Of a stretch of DNA of 64,000 nt, positions 16,318 through 52,485 are shown piece by piece. The notes beneath the pieces are model-generated. The model was not told the origin of the DNA, did not search any database, and worked only from the letters and a program-made list of their open reading frames with translations. Made by a program: the position numbers and the translations under genes. The first letter of the stretch is position 1. The number at the start of each line of letters is the position of its first letter. Origin of the DNA: Odiellus spinosus (Eukaryota > Arthropoda > Arachnida > Opiliones > Phalangiidae); NCBI GenBank assembly GCA_963920705.1, contig OY987225.1, positions 8,676,865 to 8,740,864 on the forward strand, written 5' to 3'.

Positions 16318-16477
16318 ATGGGGAAAAGGGAAGGGTGTAACGGACCTAGGCTTAATCGGTTCTCCTTAAGGATAATTGCGCGAAGGAGGTAATATCCTTT
16401 TGTGGGATTTTGAGATGTAAATAAAGATCGCTCACCATTTTTATCCAATCCTTAATGCTTATTTATTTGGTAACAGT

Positions 16478-19868: not shown

Positions 19869-19906
19869 AAGTCTTGGGGAAGTCTTTAAGACTTCCCCAA
19901 GACTTA
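19869..19906. repeat. Perfect short palindrome
   Basis: aagtcttggggaagtc and its exact inverted copy are separated by tttaa. Outer words agaggtcttc and aagacctctt extend the symmetry weakly. It lies at the truncated end of the LINE fragment. Confidence 0.75.
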
Positions 19907-25384: not shown

Positions 25385-25631
25385 TGTATCAATAACATTT
25401 TTGTATTTCGCGGGACTTTAGTAACTGGTAGATGGCGTAACCATCTTGTATAACAAAACCTGATCAGCAGGGAGGCTGAAAGCGATCAGTATCAACTACA
25501 CATCGACACAAAAAGATTAAACTAGTTACTGTTATAACTGTTGTCCACTACTTTCTAGACAATTAGTGATTCACTACTTTCTAGACAATTAGTGATTAAG
25601 TACACTAATTAGTAAGACAGTAAACGATACA
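25385..25631 (+). repeat. 5' LTR of gypsy-C
   Basis: About 247 bp, starting tgtatc and ending gataca (TG..CA with a 6-bp terminal inverted repeat). The sequence ctactttctagacaattagt is duplicated in tandem near 25550-25590. tggtgccagaatcac follows at once as the likely primer binding site. Confidence 0.8.
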
Positions 25632-25692
25632 TGGTGCCAGAATCACTATTCTTACGCCTATTGCCGTTTTTTGTTCGTTCGACGGTGGTAAA

Positions 25693-29040: not shown

Positions 29041-30281
29041 ACTATCAAGAGTATATGAAATCAAAGATGATGTAATTTATCGAAAGCCTGAGGGCTTTCA
29101 ACCAGCGAAGGTGGTGATTCCTTCATGTTTATTTCCCAGAATACTACAAGCATATCATGACCATCCTTTGTCAGGTCATAGAGGTAGAACTGCTACCTAT
29201 GCCAAAATTAGGGCTCGTTATTATCATCCCCAATTATATACACTGGTCAAGAAATATGTTAAGGAATGTGAAGTCTGTCAGCGATATAAGAGCGGAAATA
29301 CAAAGCGTCCTGGTCTTATGATACCCTCGTATAAAATACACCCAGGAGGTTTAATAGGAATAGATATTATGGGTCCATTACACTGTACAAACAACCAAAA
29401 TCGATTCCTAGTAGTAATGGTCGATTATTTTACGAAATATGTTGAAGTTTTTCCCGTCAGAAGTATTACAGCTCCTATATTGTGTAAAGTATTGCTCCAA
29501 TATATTTCTAGGCATGATACTATGGCTGCCATTTTGTCAGACAATGGGTCCCCATTTACATCTAACCTTTGGAAACAATTATGTCATAAGTTGAAGATTA
29601 AAGGCCAATATGACTGAGCGAGTGAATAGAGTTATGGGAGAAATTATGAGTATATATACAGGAAATGTACATACAAAATGGGATGAAAATTTACCATTAA
29701 TTCAGTTAGCTATTAATAGTACAGTACACGCATCTACTGGATATTCCCCCTTTTATCTCCACCATGATTATGAACCTACATTGCCCTGGGACGAAAGAAG
29801 TTTTGAGGGAGTACCAATTAATGTAGAAACAGTTTTATAGTACGAAAAAGGACCTATATATGATTAGAAAAAAGCTATAGATTTCGCACAAGAAATAAAT
29901 GAGTTGGCTAGCATGAAACAGAAGTATTTTTATGACAGGAATTATACAAACGGAGAACTTGAAGTGGGACAGTTGGTATCGAAATTGGGACATAGATTGT
30001 CAAATGCTGCTGCCAAGTTTTCTGCTAAGTTTGCACCTCGTTGGGAAGGGCCTTATCGAATTGTTGAAAATATTTCTCCTGTGAGTTATGTAATCATGGA
30101 GATGAGTACAGGAGCACTTGTTGGCACTTGGCACATTAATCAGTTAAAATTGTATATGTGTACTGCATCCCTAGACACACAGGAAGTCTTAGAACCACAG
30201 ATTAACCCAACCGTTGTTACAGAACCAGTTGCCAAGGAACCACCCATAGACCCGGATCAAACTTTTGTCATGTTCCTGTAA
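29041..30281 (+). pseudogene. pol: gypsy-B integrase
   Basis: Three frames in sequence. The zinc domain is HPLSGHRGRTATYAK with CEVCQRYK. The core has catalytic Asp in IGIDIMGPL and in LSDNGSPF. The Glu is in MTERVNRVMGE at 29610, but the stretch before it (TPYHPQ in relatives) is deleted at a frameshift. The C-terminal GPY/F-like segment is PRWEGPYRIVENISPVSYVI and HINQLKLY. The frame breaks again near 29840-29900. Confidence 0.9.
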
Positions 30282-30550: not shown

Positions 30551-31213
30551 ATGGCGGTTACATTCCCTCCCACCAGAATTGCTTCTTATGATATAGACAA
30601 TGATTCAGAATTATTAGAAGTTATTGTAGTACCTGATTCCGTAGAACAAATAGAATCTTCCTCGTCTTTAGACCCATATTTTACCCCAATAGATAACAAC
30701 TTTGATAATTCGAATGATAATGATACTGATGATCCTTGGAATGTCAGAAATTTAAATGATCGAATAGGCAGCTCCATAATTGTCGAGGAACCCTCTAGTG
30801 AAAGTGAAAATGAGGAACCTCCCCGTTATAATTTAAGATCAAGAGTCATATTTTCGAGTCCCCTTATAGAGGAGATTCAAGTTTTAAATCCAGTAGTAGA
30901 TCAACAACCACTTGTTGTTAGTGCTGACCCCGTTGTAGCTACAGATATGGTAGAAATGGATAACCCTTTGTTAAAACGTTTTTCTTATGGTTGGCATAGG
31001 GAAATAGTATTCCGTATATCCCAAGTTTCTCGTATTGGGGACGTCTACTATTATACCACGGGCCCTAATGTTCGAAAACTACGGTTATTTCCTGATATTG
31101 AAGATTATCTCTTATTACATGCCATTGCAACCAAGATTTTAAATAGGTCTAACTTTTCAATGAGACCTATACCTATTGCTTATCCCCCATATGAATCTGT
31201 ACGACACTCATGA
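30551..31213 (+). CDS. gypsy-B C-terminal ORF with MBD-like domain
   Basis: 220 residues. The first 140 are acidic and Ser-rich, with ENEEPPRYNLRSR, a motif common near the end of gypsy integrases. About 143-205 is MBD-like. It lies after the integrase GPY/F region, with about 270 bp of broken sequence between. In gypsy-A the equivalent region is continuous with integrase, so this ORF is probably the last part of pol. The Met at 30551 may be only the first in an open frame. The ORF is unbroken in an otherwise damaged element. Confidence 0.7.
   Translation: MAVTFPPTRIASYDIDNDSELLEVIVVPDSVEQIESSSSLDPYFTPIDNNFDNSNDNDTDDPWNVRNLNDRIGSSIIVEEPSSESENEEPPRYNLRSRVIFSSPLIEEIQVLNPVVDQQPLVVSADPVVATDMVEMDNPLLKRFSYGWHREIVFRISQVSRIGDVYYYTTGPNVRKLRLFPDIEDYLLLHAIATKILNRSNFSMRPIPIAYPPYESVRHS
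30977..31165 (+). other. MBD-like domain of gypsy-B
   Basis: Residues 143-205 read RFSYGWHREIVFR, then GDVYYYTTGPNVRKLRLF, IEDYL and SNFSM. They align along their length with the gypsy-A domain (GWSRAV.., DIYYYPP.., RLRS.., YL, NFDF) and less closely with animal MBDs. The SAG turn is lost and FDF is FSM, so methyl-CpG binding is doubtful for this copy. Confidence 0.62.
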
Positions 31214-33165: not shown

Positions 33166-33468
33166 TTCATACAAAGATATTGAATTTTATTTTTCACAAC
33201 ATCCAATTCAAGCTAAATCTTTGTCACTCGTAAATTGCTCCATGTCTCCGCCTATTGCTTATAATTCTTTAGACTATTCGACATTGTAGAGGACTTTCAA
33301 CCCTGGATATTATTAAGGGCTCTTTTCCATTATATTTTTATATAGACGCAGCGCCTTCCTCCTGCACTACTTAAAATTATCATAGGCTCACTCGTCTCTC
33401 AGAAAGCCAGCGAATATTTATGAGCCACTAAATAGTTCCTATCCCTCCTGAACCTGTCTCTGCTGAGG

Positions 33469-34830
33469 ATGCCCAGCAATGGTTGGCACACCATACTGAG
33501 GAAGATCACTAATTTTGGCCATACTCATGGATATCATCCCCCGTTAGGGTTTAGTGACCTGCCTATTCTGGAACTCAGTACTCCTATAACAACCGGTATT
33601 GATGTTCAAGATGTGGGTCAGGCAGATTCATCACGAACCATGGCTTCTGAACCGGAACATTCAGGAAATGCCAGTCAAGGACCAGACGTCCTATCAGGAA
33701 ATGCCAGTCAAGGACCAGACGTCCTATCAGGAAATGCCAGTCAAGGACCAGACGTCCTATCAGGAAATGCCAGTCAAGGACCAGACGTCCTATCAGGAAA
33801 TGCCAGTCAAGGACCAGACGTCCTATCAGGAAATGCCAGTCAAGGACCAGACGTCCTATCAGGAAATGCCAGTCAAGGACCAGACGTCCTATCAGGAAAT
33901 GCCAGTCAAGGACCAGACGTCCTATCAGGAAATGCCAGTCCAGGACCAGACGTCCTATCAGGAAATGCCAGTCCAGGACCAGACGTCCTATCAGGAAATG
34001 CCAGTCCAGGACCAGACGTCCTATCAGGAAATGCCAGTCCAGGACCAGACGTCCTATCAGGAAATGCCAGTCCAGGACCAGACGTCCTATCAGGAAATGC
34101 CAGTCCAGGACCAGACGTCCTATCAGGAAATGCCAGTCAAGGACCAGACGTCCTATCAGGAAATGCCAGTCAAGGACCAGACGTCCTATCAGGAAATGCC
34201 AGTCAAGGACCAGACGTCCTATCAGGAAATGCCAGTCCAGGACCAGAGGTTCCATCAGAAAAAGCCAGTCCAGGAGCAGAGGTTCCATCAGAAAAAGCCA
34301 GTCCAGGACCAGAGGTCCCAACAGGAAATGCGGGTCCAGGACCAGAGGTCCCAACAGGAAATGCGGGTCCAGGACCAGAGGTCCCAACAGGAAATGCGGG
34401 TCCAGGACCAGAGGTCCTATCAGGAAATCTCACTCTCATACCAAAGGTTCCCTCAGGAAATATAACTCCTGCACCAGATAAGGATACCCCGGTGATCCCT
34501 TATGTGGATATATTCCTCTCACTGAAATATTTTTTCTAAAGAACCATGTTAAAACCTTGTTTTCGCTAGTTTATAATTAACAATGGAGCTTTGTTTCCAG
34601 GTAACTTTGAGGCGGGTGTAACTCACCTTGGTGTTTTCCCTGAGGAACTTTCAAAGGTCACTTTGTTAAAGCATGGAAAAACGGAAGGTATTTTTACAAT
34701 GGTGGGTGTGCCACAAACATTTGCTCGAGCGTTTGAAGAACGCCATTTGGAGGATCAGGTACGACAGGCATTGGCGTATAGTAATGTTCGCAGAGTGAGT
34801 GCCATTGGATTGACTATGTTAAGGCTATAG
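33469..34830 (+). pseudogene. Second TatD-like region with an 11-residue repeat N-terminus
   Basis: The ORF 33469-34539 starts with an ordinary stretch, then about 18 units of GNASQGPDVLS or GNASPGPDVLS, a few diverged units, and ends VIPYVDIFLSLKYFF. That end aligns with the YVDxHxHLD start of TatD and with the first region's YVDALFSLNLFY, again without the metal-binding His pair. After a break, 34591-34830 continues with LLKHGKTEGIFTMVGVPQTF and NVRRVSAIGLTML, the same order as the first region. It stops at the place of the GEIGLDY motif. It appears to be a degenerate relative of the 31560-32263 region. Confidence 0.65.
33659..34437 (+). repeat. 33-bp coding minisatellite
   Basis: About 18 near-identical units (tcaggaaatgccagtcaagg + accagacgtccta) followed by five or six diverged units. 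Variants come in blocks: eight with agtcaagg, six with agtccagg, three with agtcaagg, one with agtccagg. This fits block duplication by unequal exchange. All three frames of the plus strand and the minus strand stay open; only the frame leading into the TatD motif is taken as real. Confidence 0.92.
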
Positions 34831-36763: not shown

Positions 36764-37081
36764 TGTTACCGTGAATTTTGCAAGTTAAATAAATAAACCG
36801 ACTTTATAATAAACAACATATTTATTAAGTTAAATTATTCAAGTTAAATTACTACATAACAATTATGAGAGAGAGAGTGCTTGAGAAAGACTGACTAGTT
36901 GAAGAGCTGACAGCTAACTGACTTTAGTGTGTAGAAGTATAGCAGACGACGCCTACCTTTGACCCCATGACCTTAAGAGAGTACCGCCACCTATCATATC
37001 TATTTTTGTGATGGTGTCAAAGGTCAACCTATTATACTTTTATTTTGTGATAGTGTCAAAGTTCAACCTATTATACTTTCA
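36764..37081 (-). repeat. 3' LTR of copia-B
   Basis: 318 bp with TG..CA ends (plus strand tgttaccgtg..tactttca). Contains gagagagagagtgc and a duplicated word gtcaaaggtcaacctattat near 37017-37075. A purine tract on the minus strand adjoins it. Confidence 0.95.
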
Positions 37082-37120
37082 CTCCCCCTCTTTGACAATA
37101 TCTTTAGAATTTGATAATCT

Positions 37121-38293
37121 TTATAATACGTTTAAATTTAATCTTTTCACACAATTATCAAAATTGGTTTTAGATAATAACTTTGTAAAAATATCCGCGA
37201 CATTCTTATTAGATTGAATATATTTTAAACTAAACATTTCTTCAGTTAATTTATCGCGAATGAAATGATATTTAATGTCAATGTGTTTTGATCTTTGATT
37301 TTCAACGTTATTGTGTGAATAAAAGATTGCGGATTGATTATCACATAAGATCACTGGTTTCTTAATATTACCCATTTTTAGTTCGTTGATTATCGGCAGG
37401 ATCCATAACAGTTCTTTTAAGGCTTCAGATATTGCGACGTATTCCGCTTCCATGGTTGAAAGCGATACAGACTTCTGTTTAACAGATCTCCAAATTATAG
37501 GGCAATCTCCAAGAAATAATACGTATCCAGATGTTGACTTTCGAGTATCGCGATCAGCACCCCAGTCGCTGTCACAATACATTGTAAATTGTAACTCTTC
37601 ATTTTTGTGGTACGTTACTCCAAGATCTGACGTAGTAAGGACATAACGTAGTAATTGACATAGCCTAGTCCAATGTGTATAGCCCGGATTGTTGTTAAAT
37701 TGAGATAATGCTATTACTGCGAAGAGAATGTCAGGTCTAGTCTTTTGAGCTACAAATAATAAGCAGCCGATGAGTTCTCTGTACGGTACGTTTTTCATAC
37801 GATCTTTATCTTCATCTTTATCCGGACAGTCCATTCTTGATAGGATTGTAGATGATGGAATCGGTAAGCTTACTGGCTCTTCGGCATTTACATTAAATCG
37901 TTCAGCAACTTGTTTGATATAGTTAGTTTGACTCATTTTTAAAGTGCCGTCTGATAAGAATTTAAATTCCACACCTAACAATTTCTTTATAGGTCCGAGT
38001 CGTTTAACGTCATATTTTGTTGATAGTAGTTGATATATATTTTCCGTGATTTCGTCGTTCTTGGCTAGTACTATTAGATCATCGACGTAGACGAGGACTA
38101 TCGCTTTATACGGCATTATATAAATACAATTAGTACCCAATAACTTGTTAAAACCTAATTCTTGAAAAGTTTGATCTAGAGCCAAATACCACTGTCGTCC
38201 GCTCTGCGGCAAGCCATAAAGTGCTTTGTATAGCTTGATACAAAAGTTCTTCGGGTTTTTCGTTTCGTAACCAGGTATTTGTTTCATGAAAAC
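37121..38293 (-). pseudogene. pol: copia-B pol, second part: reverse transcriptase end and RNase H
   Basis: Copia-derived coding starts at about 38293 with VFMKQIPGYE; the preceding residues in the open frame belong to the gypsy-A LTR. RT has ALYGLPQSGRQWYLALD and LVYVDDLIVLAK (YVDD). RNase H has YCDSDWGADRDTRKSTSGY, STMEAEYVAIS and CDNQSAIF, ending NVADIFTKLL. About 390 copia residues with no internal stop. The coding is sound but separated from its N-terminal part by 10.7 kb. Confidence 0.95.
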
Positions 38294-38297
38294 AGTC

Positions 38298-38932
38298 TGT
38301 AACCGGTTCCTATTCTCAGGATTCCATTTGTCAAGGAATTTAGGAATGGATACAGCGAATTTTCCCATTAATGGTTCAAACCCCTTTCTCTTTAAAATAA
38401 TAAATATCTATCGTAAAGCTAATGAGTTAGAGATACCTGATTCTCTTCGTCCGATGATGGTGAATTCTCGCCGGCCGGTATCCTGTCTGACCATTTATTC
38501 TCCCTCGACATAATTTTAGATTAATTCAAGTTGACCAATATGCTCAGAGGGATTTTATTTTCTTAACAACGAACAAAAACAGATTATCTTGACTACTAGT
38601 CTTAAAGCTACTAAACAAAAACTTTTTGTTTAACTAAAGTGGGTTTCCTCTTCCAAGGTTGGAGATCATCTGATCTTATTTTCAACTTAAGTTTTTCTGG
38701 GGCGAGAGAAAGTGACGGTCAGCGCAGGGGGTTAGTTTTTCTAATGTGAGTTCTTTTTATCGGGTAGCGTGGGGATAGGGGGGCTAGACATAAGAAATTT
38801 AAAAATGTTTTTTTTTTTTTTTTTTTTTTATTGTTACGATTCTTTTAATTGGGGTTGTTTAATAGTAGAAAAATTGGGAAAGGGGGCTAAATATTCTAAT
38901 TAAATTTTATTGATATGCGGCTGGCCGTCGCA
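38298..38932 (-). repeat. 3' LTR of gypsy-A (635 bp)
   Basis: Plus-strand ends are tgtaaccggt and gccgtcgca. It carries a T-run of about 23 near 38808-38830. The first bases extend the interrupted copia-B frame by about 25 codons, a by-product. On the minus strand it is preceded by a tract ending in eight G (plus 38935-38944), the likely polypurine tract. Confidence 0.95.
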
Positions 38933-39030
38933 ATCTCCCCCCCCAAAAAAAAATTTTTTTTTTTTTTTTTTTTTTTTTTGTTTACAAAATATAATTAGAA
39001 AGAGTTAGGCAGAAAAATCAATAGTCAAGT

Positions 39031-40206
39031 TCAAATTGAGCCGGAAGGATGTCCTCCTGTTGGTGAATCATCTGGTCCTTTTGGTTCATTTCTCGGTGGG
39101 TTTTGGGGTCGTTTATCTTTTTCCTTTCTTTGCGATTTTAGTTCTCCTATACGTTGTCTGATTTTGTACCTGCGAGGGCACCACTTTGCAAAGTGCTTCC
39201 CAAAGACGCCGCAGGCAACGCAGGGTTCGTTTTCTTTGGGAGTCTTGACTACGGGCCATCCCTCTTCGGTTATTGGATACCATTGGGTTTCCTCCATTCT
39301 AGTTATCCCTGGCCAGACGATTGGGAAGAATTGTCTTCCCAGTGGCGCTGACGATTGCAAAGGAGGAGGATGTCTTTTTGCTTCGTCTGATAGGAGTAGA
39401 AAGCGATACGGTGGGACAGGCAACGATCCATAGGCCTTGAAGAGGGTTAGGGTGTGATTATCATTGACCGGATTATCTCGAGTGGAGAAAGGGCTTATGG
39501 TGTCCCTAAGAGGACGTTCTTGTGAAGAGCGGACTCCTTGTGGTTCCTGGTTTCTTGTCGTATTTCGGAGTACTACCGATGAAGATTCCTCGTTTCTCTC
39601 CTTGGTAGTATTATGATTCGAAGGTGATTGGAGAGGGCCTACCATGATTCTTCGGGTTTCTAATTGTTGATTCAAGTCTGAAGTAGAGTCGACGTGGTTA
39701 TGGGAGACAGTATACATTATTTCCAGTCTTTGTGACTCGAGGCGTATGTCACTGGAATGCAGAGGAGAATTTATTTTTTCTTTTTTCTTTAGATTCGTGA
39801 CTCGTGATGCTGTATCTCCTTCTCCTGAACTGGAAGATTGTTGATAAGCAGTTATGGTCTCGTAGCTCAATTCTTGTAGTACGGTTTTTTCTTCTCGAGT
39901 GATTCCAGATCGGGAAATTGAACGAAGAGGGAGGGGCATCGCACAGGCTCCCAATTCTGAGTCTGAAACGTCTTCGAATTGATCTGACTTAGGGGCGACT
40001 TGAGTAATTTGACTCCCATCCGATTCGACGCAACGATTGTGTTCAGTATCTTTCGCGAGGAAATCGCGATACCAATCGAATAAAATTCCACGACCTTTGT
40101 TGTATGGGATTTTTGGATCGTTGTGTTTGTTAGGGCTCCCGCGTCCGGCTCCGGTAGACCATTCTCTTCTCCCTTCTTTGCCATAATGATCCGTAGATAG
40201 TTCCAT
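39031..40206 (-). CDS. gypsy-A ORF3, unknown protein with zinc-knuckle-like motif
   Basis: 391 residues, intact, from ATG at 40206. It starts just past the end of pol, in the place where some gypsy elements carry env. It has no signal peptide or membrane segment, so it is not an envelope protein. Most of it is hydrophilic, rich in Ser, Thr, Arg and Glu. Residues about 285-325 have PVPPYRFLLLSDEAKRHPPP and QFFPIVWPGI. Near 335-355 is CVACGVFGKHFAKWCPRR, a C-x2-C-x5-H-x4-C pattern one residue longer than a retroviral knuckle. The C-terminus is basic, then Pro/Gly-rich. It may bind nucleic acid or act as an extra gag-like protein; I do not recognise the family. Confidence 0.75.
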   Translation of the reverse strand: MELSTDHYGKEGRREWSTGAGRGSPNKHNDPKIPYNKGRGILFDWYRDFLAKDTEHNRCVESDGSQITQVAPKSDQFEDVSDSELGACAMPLPLRSISRSGITREEKTVLQELSYETITAYQQSSSSGEGDTASRVTNLKKKEKINSPLHSSDIRLESQRLEIMYTVSHNHVDSTSDLNQQLETRRIMVGPLQSPSNHNTTKERNEESSSVVLRNTTRNQEPQGVRSSQERPLRDTISPFSTRDNPVNDNHTLTLFKAYGSLPVPPYRFLLLSDEAKRHPPPLQSSAPLGRQFFPIVWPGITRMEETQWYPITEEGWPVVKTPKENEPCVACGVFGKHFAKWCPRRYKIRQRIGELKSQRKEKDKRPQNPPRNEPKGPDDSPTGGHPSGSI

Positions 40207-40257
40207 CTGAAAAATTTATCGTTAATGTTTGTCTCCTCAATAGGATTAGAATAAAAA

Positions 40258-43011
40258 TTAACAAGCTGTAGGGTTTTGTTTTCTTTCTTTCGCGGTTGTA
40301 ATTCTTTCCCAAGGGGAACAAGCTATATGACGGCGTTTAAAATCGAAATTGTCTACTGAAACATTTTCTATATTATGTTTTCTTAAATAAGCTTGAACTT
40401 CATTCGGAGAACGTAATCGTTTCCTAGGAGCTACTGGAGGATAATAATATATATCCATAATTGGCTTTCCGGGGTGTGTTGTGTGTCTGTAGCACACTGC
40501 TCGACTCCATCCTTTTCTAAAGGGTAATTCTAAGCGTGTCTCCATTTCCGGAAGTAATTCTGGATCTTCGGTTTCCATATGTTCTTCGTTTGAGACGTGA
40601 CCAATCATGCTAGTACTTGGCATATCCTCTCGTATTCTTCTTAAATAAGGAATTTCTTTTCTTTGTCGTTTCCTTTTTAGAATCTCTCGCCCTCTTTGTA
40701 TAGCGGCTTCCAATTCTGGTGGAGATGATGAAATTTCTCGTTCACGTTTCTTCGTTTTGGGTTTCGTGTCACTTTCCCTTGATTTTTCTTTTTCCTTTCT
40801 CGTACTGAGCGACGTTGATTCCTGTTCTGAGGAGCTTCGACTCGGACTTAAAGTATGAGTGACACGACTCGATTTTAAACGTTTATCCTTTTGTTTTTCA
40901 GAGTTCATTGAAGATGATTCTCTTATCCGTTTTTGAGTTTCTACTCTGTCTAGATCTTTATTGGACTCCTTTCGAGGTGACTCTAGTAAAGATTGTTTCT
41001 CCTTGAGTCGTATATCTTCCTGTCTGAGGTCTTCACTTGTCGAAGAACCTGTGTATAGGATAGGGTATTCTTCTTCCCACTTTCTTCCTGAGGAAATTTC
41101 GCTAGAGCTAAGATCCGGGGTTTTTCGTAAAGTTTTCTTGCTTGATTCAGCAGTTGGCTTTGTTGGTGTATCCGTGCTCGTCTTCGGTAAAGGTATGTCC
41201 TTTGCTAGCGCTAGTCCTGTTGATGGTAAACCAATTTGTTTTGGTACAGTCTCTTGTTGCTTCTTCAATTTAGCTATTCGTTTTCCTCCTGAATCATCGT
41301 CACTGTCAGTTCCTGATTCTGAACTTTCTTGAGGTCGCCTAAGGAGTACGTTTGGGCTCCTTTGTTGGGGAATCCTTGGAGGAGTTTTTGCTTTTTTCCT
41401 AATAACAGGTGATGGTATTTCATCTTCTGATGACGAGGAGGATATATATCGACGAGGTCTCTTTTTCCTTAGATGTCGACGCATACGTTCGCTTGAATCA
41501 GTCGCAGGAGCCTTCTTCTTTTCTTGAGATATTTGCCATTCTTTTGTAAGTACTCGGACTTGCGATCCCGAGGATCTTCTGTCTTTGTCTCTATCAGATA
41601 TTTGTGGAGGTTCTACTTCATTCTCTCTTGGTAAGTTTTCTTCGGGTGGAAGTACTTCCGGTTCCGGAGCAGCAGGTAAAGGCTGTTCTATTTCCTCGAT
41701 TTGAATATCTTTCGCATGATACAATTTTAATTGGGCAATGTTTATTGGTCCAATATTTTTTCCAGTAATAGCGTCTTCCAAAATATATACTAATGGATTT
41801 CGTTTTTCGACTATCCTATGGGGACCTGACCATTTCGGACATAACTTTGCCATCCTTCCGATATTGGCTCTTGACAATGGATGAGTCATTTTCCAGACTA
41901 GCATTCCTGGTTCAAATTCAAGATCCGCTCGTCTTCGGTCATAATACTTCTTTTGTTTAGCTTGGGCTAGTCTGGAAAATCCTTTAGTTAATTCCCATTG
42001 CTCTCGAAGAGTTCTTAAAGTTTCTGATCGATCTTCGAACTCCTCTACAGGCATTCCGATATCGAAATCCCATGGAAGCCTGGGCTCTCGTCCCATATTT
42101 AGATAAAATGGTGAGCGTCTTGTAGTATCGTGCGGAGTGGAGTTTATAGCGAAAGCTAATGAATTTAACGTTTCGTCCCAAGTTCGATGGTTATTTCCGA
42201 CGTAAATAGAAATCGTTTCTCCTAGGACTCGATTGACTCTTTCAGTCAAATCCGATTGTGGGTGATACGGCGTAGTGTATATAGGAGTTATCCGGAATAG
42301 CTTGCAAGTATCTTTCCATAGAGTTGAGACGAATTGAGTTCCACGATCACTTAGTATTTGCTTGGGAGCGCCCCATCGACAGATGACCTTCTTCAGAGCT
42401 CTTGCGCATGCGTCAGCTGTCATGGCGACTATAGGAACCAGTTCGACGTATTTGGTCATATAATCGACGAATACGATCAAGTATCGGTATCCCTTTCTAC
42501 TAATTGGGAATGGACCCATTATGTCCACGCCTATTTTATCCCATGGAGCCGTTGGTTCGGTCGACTTCATGAGTCCGGGAGTACGAGTGTTCCTTATCTT
42601 ATACTGCTGACATAGGAGACATTCCTTCACGTATTTCGCTACGTCTGCTCGTAGTGAGGGCCACCAAAATCTTGCTTCTATTTTTGCAATAGTTTTATCT
42701 CTTCCGCGATGACCAGCGAGAGGATGATCGTGAAGTAAACGAAGAGTTTCTGGTCTTAATCTTGTTGGAAGATATATTCGTTCAGGATATCTGCCAGTTT
42801 CTCTTCTGTATACGAGATTATTGCGCAATATATATATCCGATCTCGGGGAGCATTTTCTCTTGATAGTCTTTCGATGATTTCCTCCATGCTTGGATCTTC
42901 TCGCTGAGCAGTAACGATGTCATTTCTATTGAAGATATGGAAATTTGCGTGTGGAAATGGTGGTAAAACATTCTCCCTTGGATTTTCTCTATTTTCTTCG
43001 TTGTCGGAGAT
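40258..43011 (-). CDS. pol: gypsy-A pol, second part: integrase, Ser/Arg-rich linker, MBD-like domain
   Basis: In the same frame as the RT part, after one TGA. Numbering from the Met at 42888: zinc domain with HPLAGHRGRDKTIAK and CLLCQQYK (C90, C93); core with D122 (GVDIMGPF), D181 (LSDRGTQF) and E216 (LTERVNRVLGE), so the catalytic triad is intact; GPY/F-like region at about 330-375 (PKWSGPHRIVEKRNPLVYIL). About 380-780 is a low-complexity Ser/Arg/Glu/Lys linker with basic clusters that may act as nuclear signals. 790-852 is MBD-like. The Met lies inside an open frame that continues upstream to the TGA, so this is not a separate gene by design. Stop at 40258. Confidence 0.93.
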   Translation of the reverse strand: MSDNEENRENPRENVLPPFPHANFHIFNRNDIVTAQREDPSMEEIIERLSRENAPRDRIYILRNNLVYRRETGRYPERIYLPTRLRPETLRLLHDHPLAGHRGRDKTIAKIEARFWWPSLRADVAKYVKECLLCQQYKIRNTRTPGLMKSTEPTAPWDKIGVDIMGPFPISRKGYRYLIVFVDYMTKYVELVPIVAMTADACARALKKVICRWGAPKQILSDRGTQFVSTLWKDTCKLFRITPIYTTPYHPQSDLTERVNRVLGETISIYVGNNHRTWDETLNSLAFAINSTPHDTTRRSPFYLNMGREPRLPWDFDIGMPVEEFEDRSETLRTLREQWELTKGFSRLAQAKQKKYYDRRRADLEFEPGMLVWKMTHPLSRANIGRMAKLCPKWSGPHRIVEKRNPLVYILEDAITGKNIGPINIAQLKLYHAKDIQIEEIEQPLPAAPEPEVLPPEENLPRENEVEPPQISDRDKDRRSSGSQVRVLTKEWQISQEKKKAPATDSSERMRRHLRKKRPRRYISSSSSEDEIPSPVIRKKAKTPPRIPQQRSPNVLLRRPQESSESGTDSDDDSGGKRIAKLKKQQETVPKQIGLPSTGLALAKDIPLPKTSTDTPTKPTAESSKKTLRKTPDLSSSEISSGRKWEEEYPILYTGSSTSEDLRQEDIRLKEKQSLLESPRKESNKDLDRVETQKRIRESSSMNSEKQKDKRLKSSRVTHTLSPSRSSSEQESTSLSTRKEKEKSRESDTKPKTKKREREISSSPPELEAAIQRGREILKRKRQRKEIPYLRRIREDMPSTSMIGHVSNEEHMETEDPELLPEMETRLELPFRKGWSRAVCYRHTTHPGKPIMDIYYYPPVAPRKRLRSPNEVQAYLRKHNIENVSVDNFDFKRRHIACSPWERITTAKERKQNPTAC
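40333..40521 (-). other. MBD-like domain at the C-terminus of gypsy-A integrase
   Basis: Residues 790-852: FRKGWSRAVCYRHTTHPGK, then MDIYYYPPVAPRKRLRSP, EVQAYLRKHNI and DNFDFK. These match the MBD order GW-x-R, D-[IV]-YY-x-P, [KR]-x-LRS, YL and FDF. The central SAG turn is replaced by PGKP. The position, right at the integrase end, is where chromoviruses carry a chromodomain. No chromodomain is seen here. Confidence 0.8.
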
Positions 43012-44928
43012 TCACAGTGATTCTTCAGAAGTTGATAATCGATGAAGCGGCATTACTAATAATCCCAATGGGGCTCGAGATAAAGCGTCTGCTACGACAT
43101 TTTCAACTCCTTTCTTGTGCATTATTTTAAAATCGAATGTCTGCAGGTACATAGCCCATTTTACCAATCTTGAATGTGGTTCCTTTAATGTGAATAGCCA
43201 TTGTAAAGCTTTGTGGTCCGTAATGACGGTGAACGGAAGCGTTTCCAAGTATGGTCTAAAATATCCCACGGCCCAATAGATTGCTAGGCATTCTCGTTCG
43301 GTGTTACTATAATTGGTTTCGGCTTTGGATAATCTTCGGCTAGCGTATGCTATTGGTACTTCTACATTTTCTTGTACTTGGGAAAGCATTGCTCCCAATC
43401 CGGTTCCGGACGCGTCGGTTGTTAGAATACATGGTATATCCGCTTTATACGGAGCTAAAGCTGGTGCTGTTGCAATGGCGTCCTTTATTTGTTGGAAGGC
43501 TTGTTCTTGATCTTCTTCCCAACGAAATGGAACATTTTTCTTCTTGAGATGATTGATGGGTGCTACTATTTCGGAGAAGTTTGGGATAAACCGGTGATGC
43601 CAACCGGCCATACCGAGAAAACGTTGGATGTGTCTTATTGTTTTTGGTCTTGGGAATTCTTGGATGGCCTTTATTTTCGAAGGGTCGATGAATATCCCTT
43701 TTTCATTGATGATATGTCCTAGGACAATGGTCTCGGACTTGGCAAAGCGGCATTTCTTCAACTGTAAAGTTAATCCCGCATTCTTGAGACGATTCATTAC
43801 GTATTCCAGAGCGTTTAAGTGCTCTTCCCATGTTTCGGACGCTATGAGGATATCATCAAGATAGACGACGATGGAAAATGGTTCGCCATCTCTGAAGATT
43901 TCATCCATAACCCGCTGGAACGTACTCGGAGCGTTGCATAAACCAAAGGCTAGTACGTTGAACTCGTATTTACCAGCGTGGGTAATGAAGGCGGTCTTCG
44001 GTTTGGCATCAGGAGCCAATTCAACTTGCCAATATCCACTTTTTAGATCCAGTGCGGTGACGTATTTTGGCTTGCCCATCTTGTTTAGGGTTTCTTCTAT
44101 TCGAGGAATCGGGTAAGGATCTTTTGTGGTAACTGCGTTGACCTCTCGGAGATCCACGCAAAATCGAGTTTTAGTTTTTCCGGTTCCGGATCCATCGTAT
44201 TGTTCGATAATAACGACAGGAGAAGCCCATGGCGAGGTAGAAGGTCGTATGATGCCGTCCTTTAACATTTCTTGAATATTATCTTCGATAATCCGTTTTT
44301 TGGCATCGCTGACTCGATATGCTCTTTTGTTAACCGGTTTCGCATCTCCTGTATGGATTTCGTGTACGACGAGACTTGTATGGCCTAATTTGTCGCTAAA
44401 GAGGTCCGGAAAGTTTAGCAAAAGATCCTTTAATTCTTTCTTCTTTTGATCTGGCAATCCTGTTGCTTCGACAGCTTCGGTTACGTTCTTTACCATGGTT
44501 GGGGACGGGGGTCCTTTATCTTTAGACCATCCAATGAACTTGAGAGTTTCTCCTTGAATCGAGCAAGTTAAATTCTCGAAATCGATTTTCATTCCCCAAT
44601 CCTCTAAGAAGTCTTGACCAAGAATGGCATCGCATAAGAGAGACGGAACGATGTGAAATTCATGGGTGAACATCCGGTTCTTCTGATTTTCGAAGATGAT
44701 TTCGAAATCCAAGAGAATGGATCCTTTTGTGAAGGTGTATCTTCCATCACCCATAACTATACATTCAGATATCTTCTCGAAGGGGACATACGCTTCGCCT
44801 CTAAATTGTCGTATCTTCATCCATTGGTCAGCGCTAATCATGGAGACTTCTGCTCCATTGTCTATTCTTGTGTTTAATTTTCCGTGTTCGAATATTGTCG
44901 TGATCGTATGAGGTTTCCTTCTCTGCAA
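43012..44928 (-). CDS. pol: gypsy-A pol, first part: protease, reverse transcriptase, RNase H
   Basis: 638 residues as counted from a TTG at 44928; there is no ATG at this point, and the frame stays open upstream, overlapping the end of gag in the -1 frame. This suits expression by -1 frameshifting. Protease active site RIDNGAEVSMIS at about 21-32, with DNGA in place of the usual D[ST]GA. RT about 200-400: RFCVDLREVNAV, LDLKSGYWQVEL, FGLCNAPSTFQRVMD and VVYLDDILIAS (YLDD 356-359). RNase H about 500-625: LTTDASGTGLGAMLSQ, NYSNTERECLAIYWA, TDHKALQWL and ENVVADALSRAP. It ends at TGA 43012-43014, after which the frame continues. Confidence 0.95.
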   Translation of the reverse strand: MQRRKPHTITTIFEHGKLNTRIDNGAEVSMISADQWMKIRQFRGEAYVPFEKISECIVMGDGRYTFTKGSILLDFEIIFENQKNRMFTHEFHIVPSLLCDAILGQDFLEDWGMKIDFENLTCSIQGETLKFIGWSKDKGPPSPTMVKNVTEAVEATGLPDQKKKELKDLLLNFPDLFSDKLGHTSLVVHEIHTGDAKPVNKRAYRVSDAKKRIIEDNIQEMLKDGIIRPSTSPWASPVVIIEQYDGSGTGKTKTRFCVDLREVNAVTTKDPYPIPRIEETLNKMGKPKYVTALDLKSGYWQVELAPDAKPKTAFITHAGKYEFNVLAFGLCNAPSTFQRVMDEIFRDGEPFSIVVYLDDILIASETWEEHLNALEYVMNRLKNAGLTLQLKKCRFAKSETIVLGHIINEKGIFIDPSKIKAIQEFPRPKTIRHIQRFLGMAGWHHRFIPNFSEIVAPINHLKKKNVPFRWEEDQEQAFQQIKDAIATAPALAPYKADIPCILTTDASGTGLGAMLSQVQENVEVPIAYASRRLSKAETNYSNTERECLAIYWAVGYFRPYLETLPFTVITDHKALQWLFTLKEPHSRLVKWAMYLQTFDFKIMHKKGVENVVADALSRAPLGLLVMPLHRLSTSEESL

Positions 44929-45002
44929 GCCCCGTCTTCGTCGTATTGCTGATAGTTGATAGGTTTGGGGCCTTGGAGCAGTACGACTGAGTTCCTGTTG
45001 GG

Positions 45003-47885
45003 CTATTGGTTCGGTGCGGGAGGGCGTTGGCCCTGTTGTTGGCCTCCCGCTCCGATGTTTTCCGGACGAGTCGTTCTTGGTACTCGAACTGTCGGACAGT
45101 CTCTTGAAAGATGACCTCTACCGTTGCAGGTGAAACACGTGAGATTCGGTTGTAGAATTGCCGGTCTGGTAAATTGTTGTCCTTGAGGTCGATTATACGA
45201 AGGAGTAATTACTCTCGGTGTCCTTGATGGAATTCGTTGTTGTCCCTGAACATTTGATCGTGCTGTGGTTCTTCTAACTGGTTGTGACGGAGTTTGTCCT
45301 GTTCCTTGTTCTACTAATGGATACGTCGGAGCAACGGGTTGCGGTTGAACTGTATATCCTGTCTGACATTGAGGGATTTGTTCAAAAGGACCGGGAGTCG
45401 TTGGTCGTATTTGCGGAAACGTATTTGCTGATATAGTAGTAGGTTGTAGTTGTTGTAGATAATTCAGCCATGATGCTCCAGGTGTAGGTAACTGAGGATT
45501 TCCAGTAGGAATATATATTTGCGCTGGTAATCCTGTGAGCGAAGGACTTGATTGAAGAATTCCTGCGGTAGGATACTGCGCTTGAGGAGTTTCCTTCGGT
45601 AAATACATCGTTGGAGTCGAACTTGGGGTCGTTGGAGTATTTATATGTTGCGTCGCCGGAGAAGGTTGAATCGTTGCCGTTGAGTATTGCGGAATTGTTG
45701 AAAACTGTTGAAATTGAAACGGTTGGGCTGGTAATTGAGGAACCTGAGTAGTCGGTTGAAGCGTTGTTGTATATTGTTGAGAGGTCGCCATAAGTTGTTG
45801 ATATGGAGATGGTTGAAATGGTGGTTGAGGGATCTGAGTAGTCAATTGACCTTGAGATGTTAATTGAGGAAGGTATGTTCCGTACTGTTGAATAGTTGTC
45901 CCATACATAGTAGTTCTCGTTAGTCCAAGACTCTCTTCCAACTTGAGGCAGTGATCATGAAGATCTCCGACGGTAGCGGCACTCATGAAAGTTAGAATTC
46001 CTCTAAATTCAGGACGAATGTTTCTCCTGATCATATCTTGTAATTCCTTATCCGGGATAGGAGGTGTCAAACTTTGATTTACTCTTGCATAGTGGCTGAA
46101 AAATTCCTCTATGGTTTCATTTGGCCGATGAAACCGAAGATTTAGTTCGGCCTTGGCTAAAGCTTCCTTCTGTTCGGCTCGATAATGTCGCTTCATCCTC
46201 CCTTCGAATTCATTCCATCCCATCGGCTGGGGTAAACCTCTGTACCAGGTCTGAGCTTGTGCCTTTAACACCATTGGCAAGAGTCCCATCTTTTGGTTTT
46301 CCGTTAGCTCATTGAATTTAGCATATTCATCCAGATCCCGCAAGAATTCAGAGACCTTCTCTTGGTGCGTCCCATAGAAGACTAAACGGGCAGGAGGTTC
46401 CTTTAAACTGCGGCCTTTATTCTCCTTCAAGACCTTAGTCACGGTCCTTAGCATAGATGTAGATCGAGGAGACAAAGGTGGAGATATTTGTCCTTGACCT
46501 TGACCAGGTGTCCCTTGAATTGGAGATATTCCCTGAATACCTGGGGGTTGAGAAGCCGCAGGGAATTGCGAGGGAGGACCTTGTTGATAGTGTGTCTGGA
46601 TTGGGAACCATCCCGGTTGTGGTTGAGTTGGATAAGTTGGTTGTGGTGGCAACTGTGTTTGTGGAGGATACCATCCTTGATAAGCTTGAGCAGGTGTAGA
46701 TGTTATAGAAGGTCCTTGAACAAACGTACTCGTTGCTTGAGGATTAAATCCTATGGGATGCGTTATTTGCGTTGTCACTGGTTGAAATTGTTGTTGTTGG
46801 ACGCCTGGAATTTGATATTGCTGCTGTTGAGGAACTTGACCTTGAGTTAGTCCAGATATGGCGCCTGTATAAGGTATCTGACCAAGACTTCCTATTGGAT
46901 TCATTGGTTTTGACACTGTTGTCTGTTGTAATACTTGAGGACCTGAAACTCCAGCAACGTTCGGCGTTATCGTTGGAATAAATGATATTCCCGTTGGATG
47001 AACAATAGGCGTTGATATAGTTCCAGTTGCCATTGCTGTTACAGTTGTTGCGGTCAATGTCATTGGTTGTGATTGAAGTTGAGGTATCATGAATCCAGGA
47101 TATTGATATGGAGCTTGGGTTTGTGACTGTTGTCCAAATGTGGTACTAACAGAAGGTATCTGTCCATAACCTCCAGTTTGAGCGATGGACTGTGTACTTG
47201 ACGGTTGTTGAGACGCTTGAAGACCAGTCAGACCCGAAGTACTTGAAGTTAGTGTTGATATAGGTAATATTCCCGATGGTTGAACCAAAGATGTTGTCAT
47301 GGTTCCAGTTGCCATTGTTGTTGTAGTAGTCGTAGTTAACATCGCTTGTAGCGAGCCAGTAAGGTTGGCATGCCCAGAGGCATTAAGTATAGGCATACCT
47401 GAACCCAACTGGGTGTTCCCTAATATACTACCAAACGGTAATCCCATTGCGGGAGGAGATGATGACACTGGAGACCCAGGGCTCCCTGCTATACTTCCCA
47501 CACTTGGTATGGTACCAACTCTGATTAAACGTCTTTGATTCCCAGGTGGGGAATTTATTGTTAATATATTTACTGCAGAACTTAGTGAACTTACTATCCC
47601 AGCCATGGTTAATGGTGGACTTACTGTAGGAGTATGCGGGGATAGAGGTGGGCTTATTACAGGAGTATGTGGTGAAGGAGGAGGGGTACTAGTAGTTGGC
47701 ACAGTTGTAGTAGGTGGTGATGTCGCCATTATAGATTCTCCCTTATTGATTTGTAATAGTGAAGGGCGTAACAAATTCTGTATATTATAAGTAATTAAAG
47801 GGGAAGGTGATTCTACTGATTGTTCTCCAGAATCGTTTGGTTGTAGTTGTTCCCAATTAATACTAATCTCGGACCCTGATGACAA
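45003..47885 (-). CDS. gag: gypsy-A gag with a long Gln/Pro/Thr-rich N-terminus
   Basis: 960 residues from ATG at 47885, about double a typical gypsy Gag. Residues 1-470 are low complexity (Thr, Pro, Gln, Ser; for example PPTTTVPTTSTPPPSPHTP). The retrotransposon gag core is at about 480-640: EFLRDLDEYAKFNELTENQK, AQTWYRGLP, WNEFEGRMKRHYRAEQ and NETIEEFFSHYARVNQ. After another Gln/Thr/Pro stretch comes one CCHC knuckle near 922-935 (CFTCNGRGHLSRDC). The stop at 45003 overlaps the pol frame. The N-terminal region resembles intrinsically disordered, prion-like sequence. Confidence 0.93.
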   Translation of the reverse strand: MSSGSEISINWEQLQPNDSGEQSVESPSPLITYNIQNLLRPSLLQINKGESIMATSPPTTTVPTTSTPPPSPHTPVISPPLSPHTPTVSPPLTMAGIVSSLSSAVNILTINSPPGNQRRLIRVGTIPSVGSIAGSPGSPVSSSPPAMGLPFGSILGNTQLGSGMPILNASGHANLTGSLQAMLTTTTTTTMATGTMTTSLVQPSGILPISTLTSSTSGLTGLQASQQPSSTQSIAQTGGYGQIPSVSTTFGQQSQTQAPYQYPGFMIPQLQSQPMTLTATTVTAMATGTISTPIVHPTGISFIPTITPNVAGVSGPQVLQQTTVSKPMNPIGSLGQIPYTGAISGLTQGQVPQQQQYQIPGVQQQQFQPVTTQITHPIGFNPQATSTFVQGPSITSTPAQAYQGWYPPQTQLPPQPTYPTQPQPGWFPIQTHYQQGPPSQFPAASQPPGIQGISPIQGTPGQGQGQISPPLSPRSTSMLRTVTKVLKENKGRSLKEPPARLVFYGTHQEKVSEFLRDLDEYAKFNELTENQKMGLLPMVLKAQAQTWYRGLPQPMGWNEFEGRMKRHYRAEQKEALAKAELNLRFHRPNETIEEFFSHYARVNQSLTPPIPDKELQDMIRRNIRPEFRGILTFMSAATVGDLHDHCLKLEESLGLTRTTMYGTTIQQYGTYLPQLTSQGQLTTQIPQPPFQPSPYQQLMATSQQYTTTLQPTTQVPQLPAQPFQFQQFSTIPQYSTATIQPSPATQHINTPTTPSSTPTMYLPKETPQAQYPTAGILQSSPSLTGLPAQIYIPTGNPQLPTPGASWLNYLQQLQPTTISANTFPQIRPTTPGPFEQIPQCQTGYTVQPQPVAPTYPLVEQGTGQTPSQPVRRTTARSNVQGQQRIPSRTPRVITPSYNRPQGQQFTRPAILQPNLTCFTCNGRGHLSRDCPTVRVPRTTRPENIGAGGQQQGQRPPAPNQ

Positions 47886-48049
47886 AGAAGGGGTTGTATC
47901 TTGGGGTGTAGTAAAAGCTAAATTTTTATTTGGTGACGTCAGTTTTATGCCACAATAATATTTTCGTTTATTAAATAAAAGTGTTTGAATAACCTGCTAT
48001 TAATAGGAAAATATTTCTCAAAATTGTGTGTTTAATTCATCTAAGTTTT

Positions 48050-48328
48050 GTTAAAAAGGTTTTATAATTATAAATATCAAAATCAAAAGTAATAGATCAG
48101 AATGATAATGTCGTGGAAAATTTCCATTAACTAAAATAAGGAATTTTTGAAAAGAATAGGCGAGATAACGCCTATCACCACCCCCATCAAAAAAGAACGG
48201 GCCGAAAAAGGCGAACGGAAAAAAATTGAAGCCCAGGTCGGGGAGGCCAAGATGGCGGACCGGGAAGGCGAGGAGAAGAAAAGCCGAAAAACGGCGAAGG
48301 GAAAGGGGTATGGTCACGGCACCAATTC
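48050..48328 (-). promoter_or_regulatory. gypsy-A leader and primer binding site (tRNA-His type)
   Basis: On the minus strand tggtgccgtgac starts four bases inside the 5' LTR. It is complementary to the 3' end of tRNA-His (..GUCACGGCACCA), and a tRNA-His primer is known for some LTR elements. The rest of the leader to the gag ATG shows no feature apart from small chance ORFs. Confidence 0.7.
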
Positions 48329-48960
48329 TGTAACCGGTTCCTATTCTCAGGATTCCATTTGTCAAGGAATTTAGGAATGGATACAGCGAATTTTCCCATT
48401 AATGGTTCAAACCCCTTTCTCTTTAAAATAATAAATATCTATCGTAAAGCTAATGAGTTAGAGATACCTGATTCTCTTCGTCCGATGATGGTGAATTCTC
48501 GCCGGCCGGTATCCTGTCTGACCATTTATTCTCCCTCGACATAATTTTAGATTAATTCAAGTTGACCAATATGCTCAGAGGGATTTTATTTTCTTAACAA
48601 CGAACAAAAACAGATTATCTTGACTACTAGTCTTAAAGCTACTAAACAAAAACTTTTTGTTTAACTAAAGTGGGTTTCCTCTTCCAAGGTTGGAGATCAT
48701 CTGATCTTATTTTCAACTTAAGTTTTTCTGGGGCGAGAGAAAGTGACGGTCAGCGCAGGGGGTTAGTTTTTCTAATGTGAGTTCTTTTTATCGGGTAGCG
48801 TGGGGATAGGGGGGCTAGACATAAGAAATTTAAAAATGTTTTTTTTTTTTTTTTTTTATTGTTACGATTCTTTTAATTGGGGTTGTTTAATAGTAGAAAA
48901 ATTGGGAAAGGGGGCTAAATATTCTAATTAAATTTTATTGATATGCGGCTGGCCGTCGCA
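48329..48960 (-). repeat. 5' LTR of gypsy-A (632 bp)
   Basis: Matches 38298-38932 along its length; the only difference I see is a T-run three bases shorter (about 48839-48857). Followed by agtc, the copy of the TSD. Confidence 0.95.
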
Positions 48961-51900
48961 AGTCTTTTCTAGATCGCCGTATAGATAGGCATTCTTGATA
49001 TCCAAATGTTCGTGAACCCAGCCGAAGGTAAGTATAAATATGGCGAAGAACAGTCTTATTAAAGAAAAATTCACGACTGGAGAGAAACTCTGATCATAAT
49101 CTTCTCCTTCCACTTGGTTGAAACCCTGCGCCACTAGTCGTGCTCTGTAACGTACAATTTCGTCGTTGATGTTCTTCTTTACTTGATATACCCAGCGGCA
49201 TCCTACGATTTTCTTATCTTCAGGTTTTGGAACTATTTTAGCGACTCCTCGATGTTTTAACGTTTTAACCTCATCATCCATGGCGCGTTGCCATTCTTCT
49301 TTCTGCGGCGATTGGATAGCCTCATTATAATTATTCGGGATAATAACTTCGGTATGATACGCTTCGAAAACGTTTAGTATGTCTTCTTGAGTTATACTGC
49401 TGATTAACGATGAGGCCAGATTCTTTTTCGAGAAATCGAAGACTTTCGGGTCTATTGCTAAGTTGTTATCTTGAATATGTTTCGCTAGTGATTTGTAAGA
49501 TCTCCATAATTTTCCATCTGGATCCCGATAATATATATCAACTTCTCCAGCTGACGCTCCCTTTTTTCGAATTGGTACTTCACGATGCCAACCTGTAGGT
49601 ATATCTTGAATACCCTTTTTAGCTTCCGTTTGAGTTATATCGTTCTTGGACTCTTCTAGGATGACTGAATGTGGTTGGTCCTCTTGTTCATCATCGTCGC
49701 TTAACTGTAATCGTTCTTCAGCAGGAGATTCATTCGCGTTTCGAATAGATATTTTTCTTTGCGGAGTCTTTGGTATTTCCTTTTTCTTAGGAATTATTTC
49801 GTCATCTTCTTCTTCGTTCTCTCTAGGCCAATTCATTAATACTACTTCGTTTTGTGGAAGTTTATACTGTTCTATGCCAAGTTCATTTTCGTTAAACGTT
49901 ACGTGCTTAGTTTCCTCGACAGTTCTTTCCTTTGGGAACCATATTCGATAGCCTCTTGTGGTACTTGCGTATCCTACTAGTACACCCAACTTCGCTCTAT
50001 TCTGGAATTTGTTTCTACGATGTTGCGGTGGAATATGAGCAAAGGCTAAGCACCCAATTCGTTTCAAATAGTTAGCGCTTGGGGTTCTTTCCATCCAGCA
50101 TTGAAGTGGAACTCTATCCAAAAGCGAATGTCTTGATCGATTCTTTAAATGAGCGGCTGTCAATACGAGTTCTGCCCATAACATCTCCGGCAACTTGGTT
50201 TCTTCCATGATGGTGCGGACAGTATTTAATAAAGTGCGATTTATGCGCTCTGCGACCCCATTCATGGGTGGTGAGTATACATTGGTCCTTTCTAATTTGA
50301 TACCTTCCGTTTGACAGTAATTAATAAACTTGTTGGAGCAATACTCCAAACCGTTATCAGTACGCAGCGCCTTGATTTTCTTTCCTGTTTGTCTCTCTAC
50401 CTGGGCTTTATAAACTTTGAAACAATCAAATGCTTCACTTTTGTGGGCCATAGTTAAGACTCGAATCATCCTGCTCCTATCGTCGATAAACGTGATAAAG
50501 TATTTAGCTCCCCCTAGCGAAGCCACATTGGACGGTCCCCATACGTCGGAATGTATTAGATCCAATATTTCGGTGCTTCTGATTTGATTATTCTTCTTAT
50601 ACGGATGCCTTGTACTTTTAGATAATTTGCACGGGATACATGTTGCTAACGTGTCTCTAAATGGTTCTAGTCCCTGCAACATTTCTTCCTTCGCCATATA
50701 TTTAAGATCTTCTTGATTGATATGCCCCAAACGTGCGTGCCATAATTCTATCCCTTTTAAATTTCTTGTAATATTTGAACTTGACGTTTTATACGATTCC
50801 ATTCCCGTCGTTTTTTCTTCGTCATCTTCCGGTAATTCTTTCATTACTTGAGCATTTACGGTATAAAAATTCTCTCGCGTTAAATGAGCCAGAAAAGCTT
50901 TTTCACCATCCGGAAAATAAACTTGAAAGGTTGAATCATTAAACTTGCCAGTATATTTAGCTTGGTCCATCAAACGTACAGACATCAGATTTCTTCTCAT
51001 GCCTGGAGCATATATCGTATTTCGAAAACATATTTGAATCTTCGGTTCATCTAACATTTGAAGCCAAATATCGCCCTGGCCTTCGACTCTCGATTTACCT
51101 TCACCCACTGTCGCTTCGGTACTTAATGGTGTGAAAGTACAAAACCAGTCTCTCTTATTGCAGAAGTGGTGTGTTGCCGCACTGTCCATAATCCAAGTAT
51201 CGGACGAGGTTTCCGATAACATAGCTGATGCATAGAAAGCTCCTTTTCTTTGGCCTTTGTCGTTATTCTGTGGTTTTCTTTTGCTATAGCAATTGCTGGC
51301 TCGATGTCCCTTGCGTCCACATTTAAAACACGTTATCGGTTCACCTCTCTCTGAATTCCTTTCCTGAACTTGAGGCTTTTTATCTGTATATTTTGGTGTT
51401 CGATTCTCGGATTTCTTTACGTTAACTACGAAGGCGTTCGCTGCCTTTTCGTCAGCTTGTCCCATTTGCTTTTGTCGAACTTCCTCAGATAATAAAAGTT
51501 TCTTAATCTTTTCAGGAGTAAAATCAGCATCCTCTGATTGATACATTTGATAAACGAGAGCATCGTACGATTTCGGTAACGAACCAATTAGTATGTAATA
51601 AACATCGTCTTTAATCACAGGACGTCCGGCATTTTCTAGTTGGCGCTTCACATTATATAATCGTCCAATAAACGCTGCCATTTGTTCACCAGGCTGATAA
51701 GTCAACCCATAAAACTCTTTCTGTAACATCGCTATTCTAGCACGGGATTTCGGTTCGTATGTATTTCGTAAAGTAGCCCAAGCTTCAACTGCTGTTGACG
51801 TTTCTTCAATTACGCTACGTAAATCTTCCCCAATTGAAGCAGCAATCGTTGCGTATGCTCTTGACTTTCTTAATCTAAACTTTTGTTGTAACTCTTCAGA

Positions 51901-52074
51901 CTCTGTTGATGCTGGTGCGGTTTCGGTACCCTCAACGATTTCCCAAAGTCCTTTATCTCGTAATATCATTTCTACATCGAATTTCCATTGCTTATAATTG
52001 TCTGACGTTAACTGGATACATTGTCCATGTAGTTTATATTCACGTTCCGCCATATTAAAAGTCGTTATGTTCAA
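48961..52074 (-). pseudogene. pol: copia-B gag, protease, integrase, MBD and start of RT (first part of polyprotein)
   Basis: About 1037 copia residues in one unbroken frame. The Met at 52074 is seven codons upstream of MAEREYKLHG; the latter matches copia-A's start and is the likelier one (52053). Gag (UBN2-like) about 20-200; CCHC knuckle 249-262 (CFKCGRKGHRASNC); protease D297 in IMDSAATHHF; gag-pre-integrase LWHARLGHINQ with CIPCKLSKS (479-482); integrase D510 (HSDVWGP), D573 (RTDNGLEY) and E609 (NGVAERINR), a DD35E triad; integrase C-terminus GYRIWFP; MBD about 825-883; RT start GCRWVYQVKK and LDIKNAYLYGDLEK. The frame then runs into the gypsy-A LTR. Confidence 0.95.
49426..49602 (-). 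other. MBD-like domain of copia-B
   Basis: Residues about 825-883: IPTGWHREVPIRKKGASAG, then VDIYYRDPDGKLWRSYKS and PKVFDFSK. Same place and pattern as in copia-A, with GW-x-RE, R-K-K-G-x-SAG, D-I-YY, D-P-x-G, RS and FDFS all kept. The reading frame around it is intact, so the domain was part of a functional polyprotein recently. Confidence 0.88.
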
Positions 52075-52150
52075 ACTTCGCTAAGCCTTGTATTCCAGCC
52101 TTGCATTAAGTTTCTATTTCGTTTTCGTTTGGCTTTAAATAAATGCAAAC

Positions 52151-52164
52151 CACGCTCTGCTACC
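52151..52164 (-). promoter_or_regulatory. Primer binding site of copia-B (tRNA-iMet type)
   Basis: On the minus strand ggtagcagagcgtg lies three bases (ttt) inside the 5' LTR end (taaca). Same sequence as in copia-A. Confidence 0.8.
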
Positions 52165-52167
52165 AAA

Positions 52168-52485
52168 TGTTACCGTGAATTTTGCAAGTTAAATAAATAA
52201 ACCGACTTTATAATAAACAACATATTTATTAAGTTAAATTATTCAAGTTAAATTACTACATAACAATTATGAGAGAGAGAGTGCTTGAGAAAGACTGACT
52301 AGTTGAAGAGCTGACAGCTAACTGACTTTAGTGTGTAGAAGTATAGCAGACGACGCCTACCTTTGACCCCATGACCTTAAGAGAGTACCGCCACCTATCA
52401 TATCTATTTTTGTGATGGTGTCAAAGGTCAACCTATTATACTTTTATTTTGTGATAGTGTCAAAGTTCAACCTATTATCCTTTCA
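52168..52485 (-). repeat. 5' LTR of copia-B
   Basis: 318 bp, differing from 36764-37081 at one site I can see (tattatcc for tattatac near the outer end). TSD agttc follows at 52486-52490. Confidence 0.95.

Follow-up and report, generated by a model that had tools for sequence, protein, structure and literature searches.

The 64,000-nucleotide stretch of Odiellus spinosus DNA analysed here (GenBank assembly GCA_963920705.1, contig OY987225.1, positions 8,676,865 to 8,740,864 of the forward strand; the window) contains a long terminal repeat (LTR) retrotransposon, Gypsy-A, whose pol ends in a methyl-CpG-binding domain (MBD). Gypsy-A interrupts the copia element Copia-B within its reverse transcriptase (RT) region, and the two halves of Copia-B are represented by the open reading frames (ORFs) 48928-52080 and 37121-38407. 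The domain order of Gypsy-A, RT followed by RNase H and integrase, is that of Ty3/gypsy elements, as is the combination of LTRs, a short target-site duplication (TSD), a primer-binding site (PBS) and a polypurine tract (PPT), the last two lying at the expected places. An earlier reading made from the sequence only had described an element that was nearly intact, with matching LTRs and a TSD. The LTRs indeed align over 638 nt with no mismatch and one 3-nt gap (a T-run of 22 versus 19), they are flanked by the TSD AGTC, and the description as nearly intact is fair, with one in-frame stop (43012-43014) in pol between RNase H and integrase. The first part of pol also gave a Spuma_A9PTase match (0.0011) below the Pfam cut-off. 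The MBD occupies the end of pol, after the integrase core, a GPY/F-like motif and a charged linker. Downstream of pol, Gypsy-A carries a 394-aa ORF (39031-40215, minus strand) that has a knuckle-like CxxC...H...C stretch and belongs to no Pfam family.

The sequence-only reading had placed an MBD-like domain at 40333-40521 and had pointed to the motifs GWSRAV, DIYYYPP, RLRS, YL and FDF, all of which are present in that order. When the MBD ORFs were searched against 24,736 Pfam models, residues 28-97 of the Gypsy-A ORF (40261-40620, minus strand), corresponding to 40330-40539 and agreeing with the earlier placement, matched PF01429 with 46 bits against a cut-off of 21, and the only other row for this ORF had an E value of 6.7. 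The best PDB sequence was the TAM domain of BAZ2B (E 5.1e-5). The predicted structure had a mean pLDDT (predicted local distance difference test) of 71.9, with most core blocks at 82-89 and the loop residues 21-30 at 62, and in a Foldseek search with this model ranks 1-13 were all MBDs (best E 6.6e-3). Chance similarity was rejected on the Pfam score together with the Foldseek matches. Thus, the pol of Gypsy-A ends in a genuine MBD, as had been proposed. Over 40261-41820 (minus strand), a stretch that begins just inside the GPY/F-like motif and runs to the stop codon, the MBD was the sole Pfam family at E up to 1, and no chromodomain was found there.

While the sequence-only reading covered one MBD-bearing element, the window holds three more, Gypsy-B, Copia-A and Copia-B. 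All four MBDs score above the Pfam cut-off (Table 1) and sit on integrase tails; by best match, the two gypsy domains are BAZ2-like and the two copia domains MeCP2/MBD2-like. Methyl-CpG is contacted or positioned in MeCP2 by residues R111, D121, Y123 and R133. When the window domains are aligned with solved MBDs, the corresponding positions are R/D/Y/R in all four domains of the window, in MeCP2 and in MBD2, whereas they are R/E/A/R in BAZ2B and K/E/W/K in BAZ2A. Only 9 columns are invariant among the four window MBDs, which are otherwise 19-44% identical, and the equivalents of R111, D121, Y123 and R133 are among these. Since Gypsy-A keeps R/D/Y/R though BAZ2A and BAZ2B differ, its MBD appears to be BAZ2-like in overall sequence yet equipped as a methyl-CpG reader; these residues are the best functional evidence that we have, and function is what we infer from them.

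Table 1. Coordinates of the MBD-bearing elements of the window and of their parts.
Feature	Position	Strand	Evidence
Gypsy-A, LTR retrotransposon with MBD	38298..48960	-	LTR pair, TG..CA ends, TSD, PBS, PPT
Gypsy-A TSD AGTC (4 bp), left copy	38294..38297	.	
Gypsy-A 3' LTR, 635 nt	38298..38932	-	Self-alignment; ends set by TG..CA
Gypsy-A MBD	40330..40539	-	PF01429 E 4e-12; fold matches; key residues
Gypsy-A S/E/R/K-rich linker, ~400 residues	40621..41697	-	Composition; 0 Pfam families
Gypsy-A integrase C-terminal SH3-like / GPY/F-like segment	41776..41862	-	GPHRI at 41826; SH3_Tf2-1 E 0.011, below cut-off
Gypsy-A integrase, H2C2 zinc domain and rve core	42259..42768	-	Pfam 4.1e-22 and 2.8e-14
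Gypsy-A pol part 1, RT and RNase H, to in-frame stop	43012..45117	-	Pfam RVT_1 3.3e-34, RT_RNaseH 4.4e-36
Gypsy-A gag ORF, CCHC zinc knuckle	45003..47996	-	Pfam zf-CCHC 1.1e-5; Retrotrans_gag 4.6e-4 (below cut-off)
Gypsy-A 5' LTR, 632 nt	48329..48960	-	Self-alignment; ends set by TG..CA
Gypsy-A TSD AGTC (4 bp), right copy	48961..48964	.	
Gypsy-B integrase fragment, element degraded	29042..29617	+	Integrase_H2C2 1.1e-20, rve 6.1e-12
Gypsy-B MBD, end of pol	30959..31162	+	PF01429 5.2e-7
Copia-A element	1953-6230	-	MBD between integrase and RT
Copia-A MBD, between integrase SH3 and RVT_2	3594..3779	-	PF01429 1.8e-14; domain order
Copia-B element, hosts nested Gypsy-A	36764..52485	-	318-nt LTRs (1 mismatch), TSD AGTTC
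Copia-B MBD, between integrase SH3 and RVT_2	49420..49602	-	PF01429 2.1e-12; domain order

The integrases of Gypsy-A and Gypsy-B are 44% identical, and the MBD has therefore probably long been resident in this gypsy lineage. Although Gypsy-B is decayed, the frame of its MBD is still open; the model of this domain is of low confidence (mean pLDDT 63.5), and its four best fold matches are MBDs, with the BAZ2B TAM domain at the top. A further gypsy fragment (25624-27677) has no MBD in its ORFs, so that not all gypsy elements here carry one. No LTR pair was found for Copia-A in the self-comparison of the window. Just downstream of the Gypsy-B MBD lies an ORF for a TatD-type DNase (31603-32097, plus strand; Pfam 7.4e-19), possibly a further gene of Gypsy-B; the open-licence literature gave no match for TatD together with retrotransposon, integrase and gypsy.

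The domain can be compared with several known systems. Chromoviruses are Ty3/gypsy elements with a chromodomain on the integrase tail, and Gypsy-A resembles them in carrying a domain of the chromatin-reader type on this tail past the GPY/F-like part; it differs in that, with no chromodomain detected, an MBD stands in its place after the linker of ~400 residues. The TAM domains of BAZ2A and BAZ2B, which are the closest PDB sequences to the gypsy MBDs, have no counterpart of D121 and Y123, both of which Gypsy-A retains. CopiaMBD elements are copia elements with an MBD that reportedly bind methylated DNA and show an insertion bias. Copia-A and Copia-B have a copia pol with the MBD between integrase and RT and, given that such a family has been described, are probably members of it. 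Gypsy-A is likewise an LTR retrotransposon with an MBD in pol. However, its RVT_1 domain precedes the integrase, in contrast to the copia order of integrase before RVT_2, and its MBD is BAZ2-like instead of MeCP2/MBD2-like and stands at the very end of pol.

A family of arthropod retrotransposons with an MBD has already been published (de Mendoza, Pflueger and Lister 2019, Genome Res 29:1277), and a retrotransposon methyl-reader as such is therefore not new. Another paper states, citing the same work and one other, that copia elements accumulate in CpG-dense regions (PMC11721087). Retrotransposons bearing a DNA methyltransferase (DNMT) have also captured a part of the DNA methylation machinery, as Gypsy-A has, but this part is a writer, versus the reader in Gypsy-A (de Mendoza 2018, PMC5890265). 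Among the matches listed in the open-licence literature (titles and abstract openings, a scope outside which most subscription journals fall) there was no Ty3/gypsy element with an MBD. The gypsy version may be new, although with this scope the negative is weak evidence of novelty.

Signs of methylation were sought in the base composition of the window. The observed/expected CpG ratio was 0.94 for the window, 0.98 for Gypsy-A and 0.59 for the decayed Gypsy-B. The window value argues against heavy germline methylation and is still compatible with patchy methylation. The low CpG ratio of Gypsy-B, together with a TpG ratio of 1.10, would be in keeping with methylated old copies, but the ratio is just as variable in other stretches (0.57-1.68 among the 15 measured). 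The insertion site of Gypsy-A has 26 CpG per 500 bp; 16% of positions attain this number, and as a single site it is uninformative. The window also contains a foldback element (22492-25089), which directly follows an ORF for a retroviral-type protease and consists of two 1.14-kb arms in inverted orientation with 96.9% likeness. The arms differ by 31 mismatches (34 by BLAST), of which 11 are transitions, 2 of these at CpG, numbers too small for a conclusion.

We propose that Gypsy-A is a young Ty3/gypsy element whose integrase ends in a captured methyl-CpG-binding domain, attached by way of the long charged linker. Once cDNA has been made, this MBD would keep the integrase complex bound to methylated, CpG-rich chromatin, and new copies would thereby be inserted preferentially into methylated DNA. 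Such targeting would parallel that of chromoviruses by their chromodomains, with DNA being read instead of histones, and a different MBD subtype may do the same job in the neighbouring copia elements. From the sequence-only proposal of an analogous methylation reader, the MBD on a tail that bears chromodomains elsewhere and the retained MeCP2 reader residues stand, whereas 5mCpG binding and a bias of insertion are extrapolated from them; on balance, we consider it reasonably probable that the captured domain steers insertion by anchoring the integration complex to methylated CpG-rich DNA. Several observations would suit other readings: the closest PDB sequences of both gypsy MBDs are BAZ2B and BAZ2A, the best fold match of the Gypsy-B MBD is the BAZ2B TAM domain, Gypsy-B is decayed and the Gypsy-A pol contains a stop. 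BAZ2 TAM domains and MBD3 are without methyl selectivity, and the likeness to BAZ2 would suit an MBD fold that tethers integrase to DNA or nucleosomes, and hence to chromatin in general. However, the equivalents of R111, D121, Y123 and R133 are all kept in both gypsy MBDs, while BAZ2A and BAZ2B are without the D and the Y, which makes a general tether unlikely in our view. The decay and the stop would be expected of a passenger or vestigial MBD with no function, but the identity of the reader residues in four of four domains that have otherwise diverged so far, and the open MBD frame in decayed Gypsy-B, render this highly improbable. The profile match and the reader residues would also fit an MBD that reads methyl-CpG in order to blunt silencing, occupying methylated element copies instead of the host MBD proteins, which are repressors, and having no part in target choice. 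In both superfamilies, however, it is the integrase side of pol, and not gag or a separate ORF, to which the MBD is joined, so that targeting fits better and an anti-silencing role appears improbable; the integrase tail is a known seat of targeting modules of LTR elements, chromovirus chromodomains being an example.

How often the domain was captured is a related question. BAZ2B gave the best score with both gypsy MBDs (26.4 and 23.5 bits), and BAZ2B and BAZ2A were their closest PDB sequences, whereas the copia MBDs matched MeCP2 or MBD2 best (50.4 and 44.0 bits; 2.1e-12 and 1.8e-10), with 19.7 and 20.5 bits for BAZ2B. These scores, and the different position of the MBD in the pol of gypsy and copia elements, speak against a single capture in which the domain passed between copia and gypsy by recombination and the subtypes reflect divergence. 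Such a history would be compatible with the poor resolution of a tree of eight MBD sequences, in which none of the five inner branches reached 95/80 and the gypsy pair (77/82) was not joined with BAZ2; nevertheless, we regard it as rather improbable. Two captures would be the simpler reading, although the tree does not settle it. More tentatively, and as a possibility that we would not call probable, two LTR superfamilies in one genome may have independently captured different host MBD subtypes, BAZ2-like in gypsy and MeCP2/MBD2-like in copia, fused them to the integrase tail and come to send their copies into methylated DNA, hence into one another, the insertion of Gypsy-A in Copia-B being one such event.

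Relatives of the element were also sought elsewhere. Neither viral contigs (queried with the MBD, the four-MBD alignment, the integrase and the integrase alignment) nor phages (tblastn) gave any, and the BFVD viral fold library returned no match at E 0.001 or better. Matches in PHROGs, of the MBD to a terminase family (0.018) and of the 394-aa ORF (0.32), were taken as chance. Genome contigs contained three loci (L001, L002 and L003) with integrase relatives at 33-39% identity, none of the three with an MBD; these are gypsy elements in contigs filed under bacterial metagenome-assembled genomes and look like eukaryotic contamination. A local MBD profile run on six-frame stop-free segments of at least 30 aa (988 in the window and 319 in these loci) revealed no MBD at E up to 10 beyond the four known ORFs, which match by construction because the profile contains them. 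Besides the elements described, the window includes a MULE/ZSWIM-like transposase with long coding minisatellites (10575-16345, minus strand), beside it a 35-bp tandem array (~16400-20000; 85 registered copies of a 300-nt reference), and a coding minisatellite with the repeat GNASQGPDVLS (33436-34539, plus strand). No tRNA genes were found in the window.

If the gypsy MBD reads 5mCpG, the integrases of retrotransposons have probably captured a methylation reader more than once, in this case on the tail that bears chromodomains in other elements. LTR retrotransposons would then have a recurrent landing signal in methylated DNA, and the presence of two reader subtypes in one genome would offer a natural experiment on the evolution of target choice.
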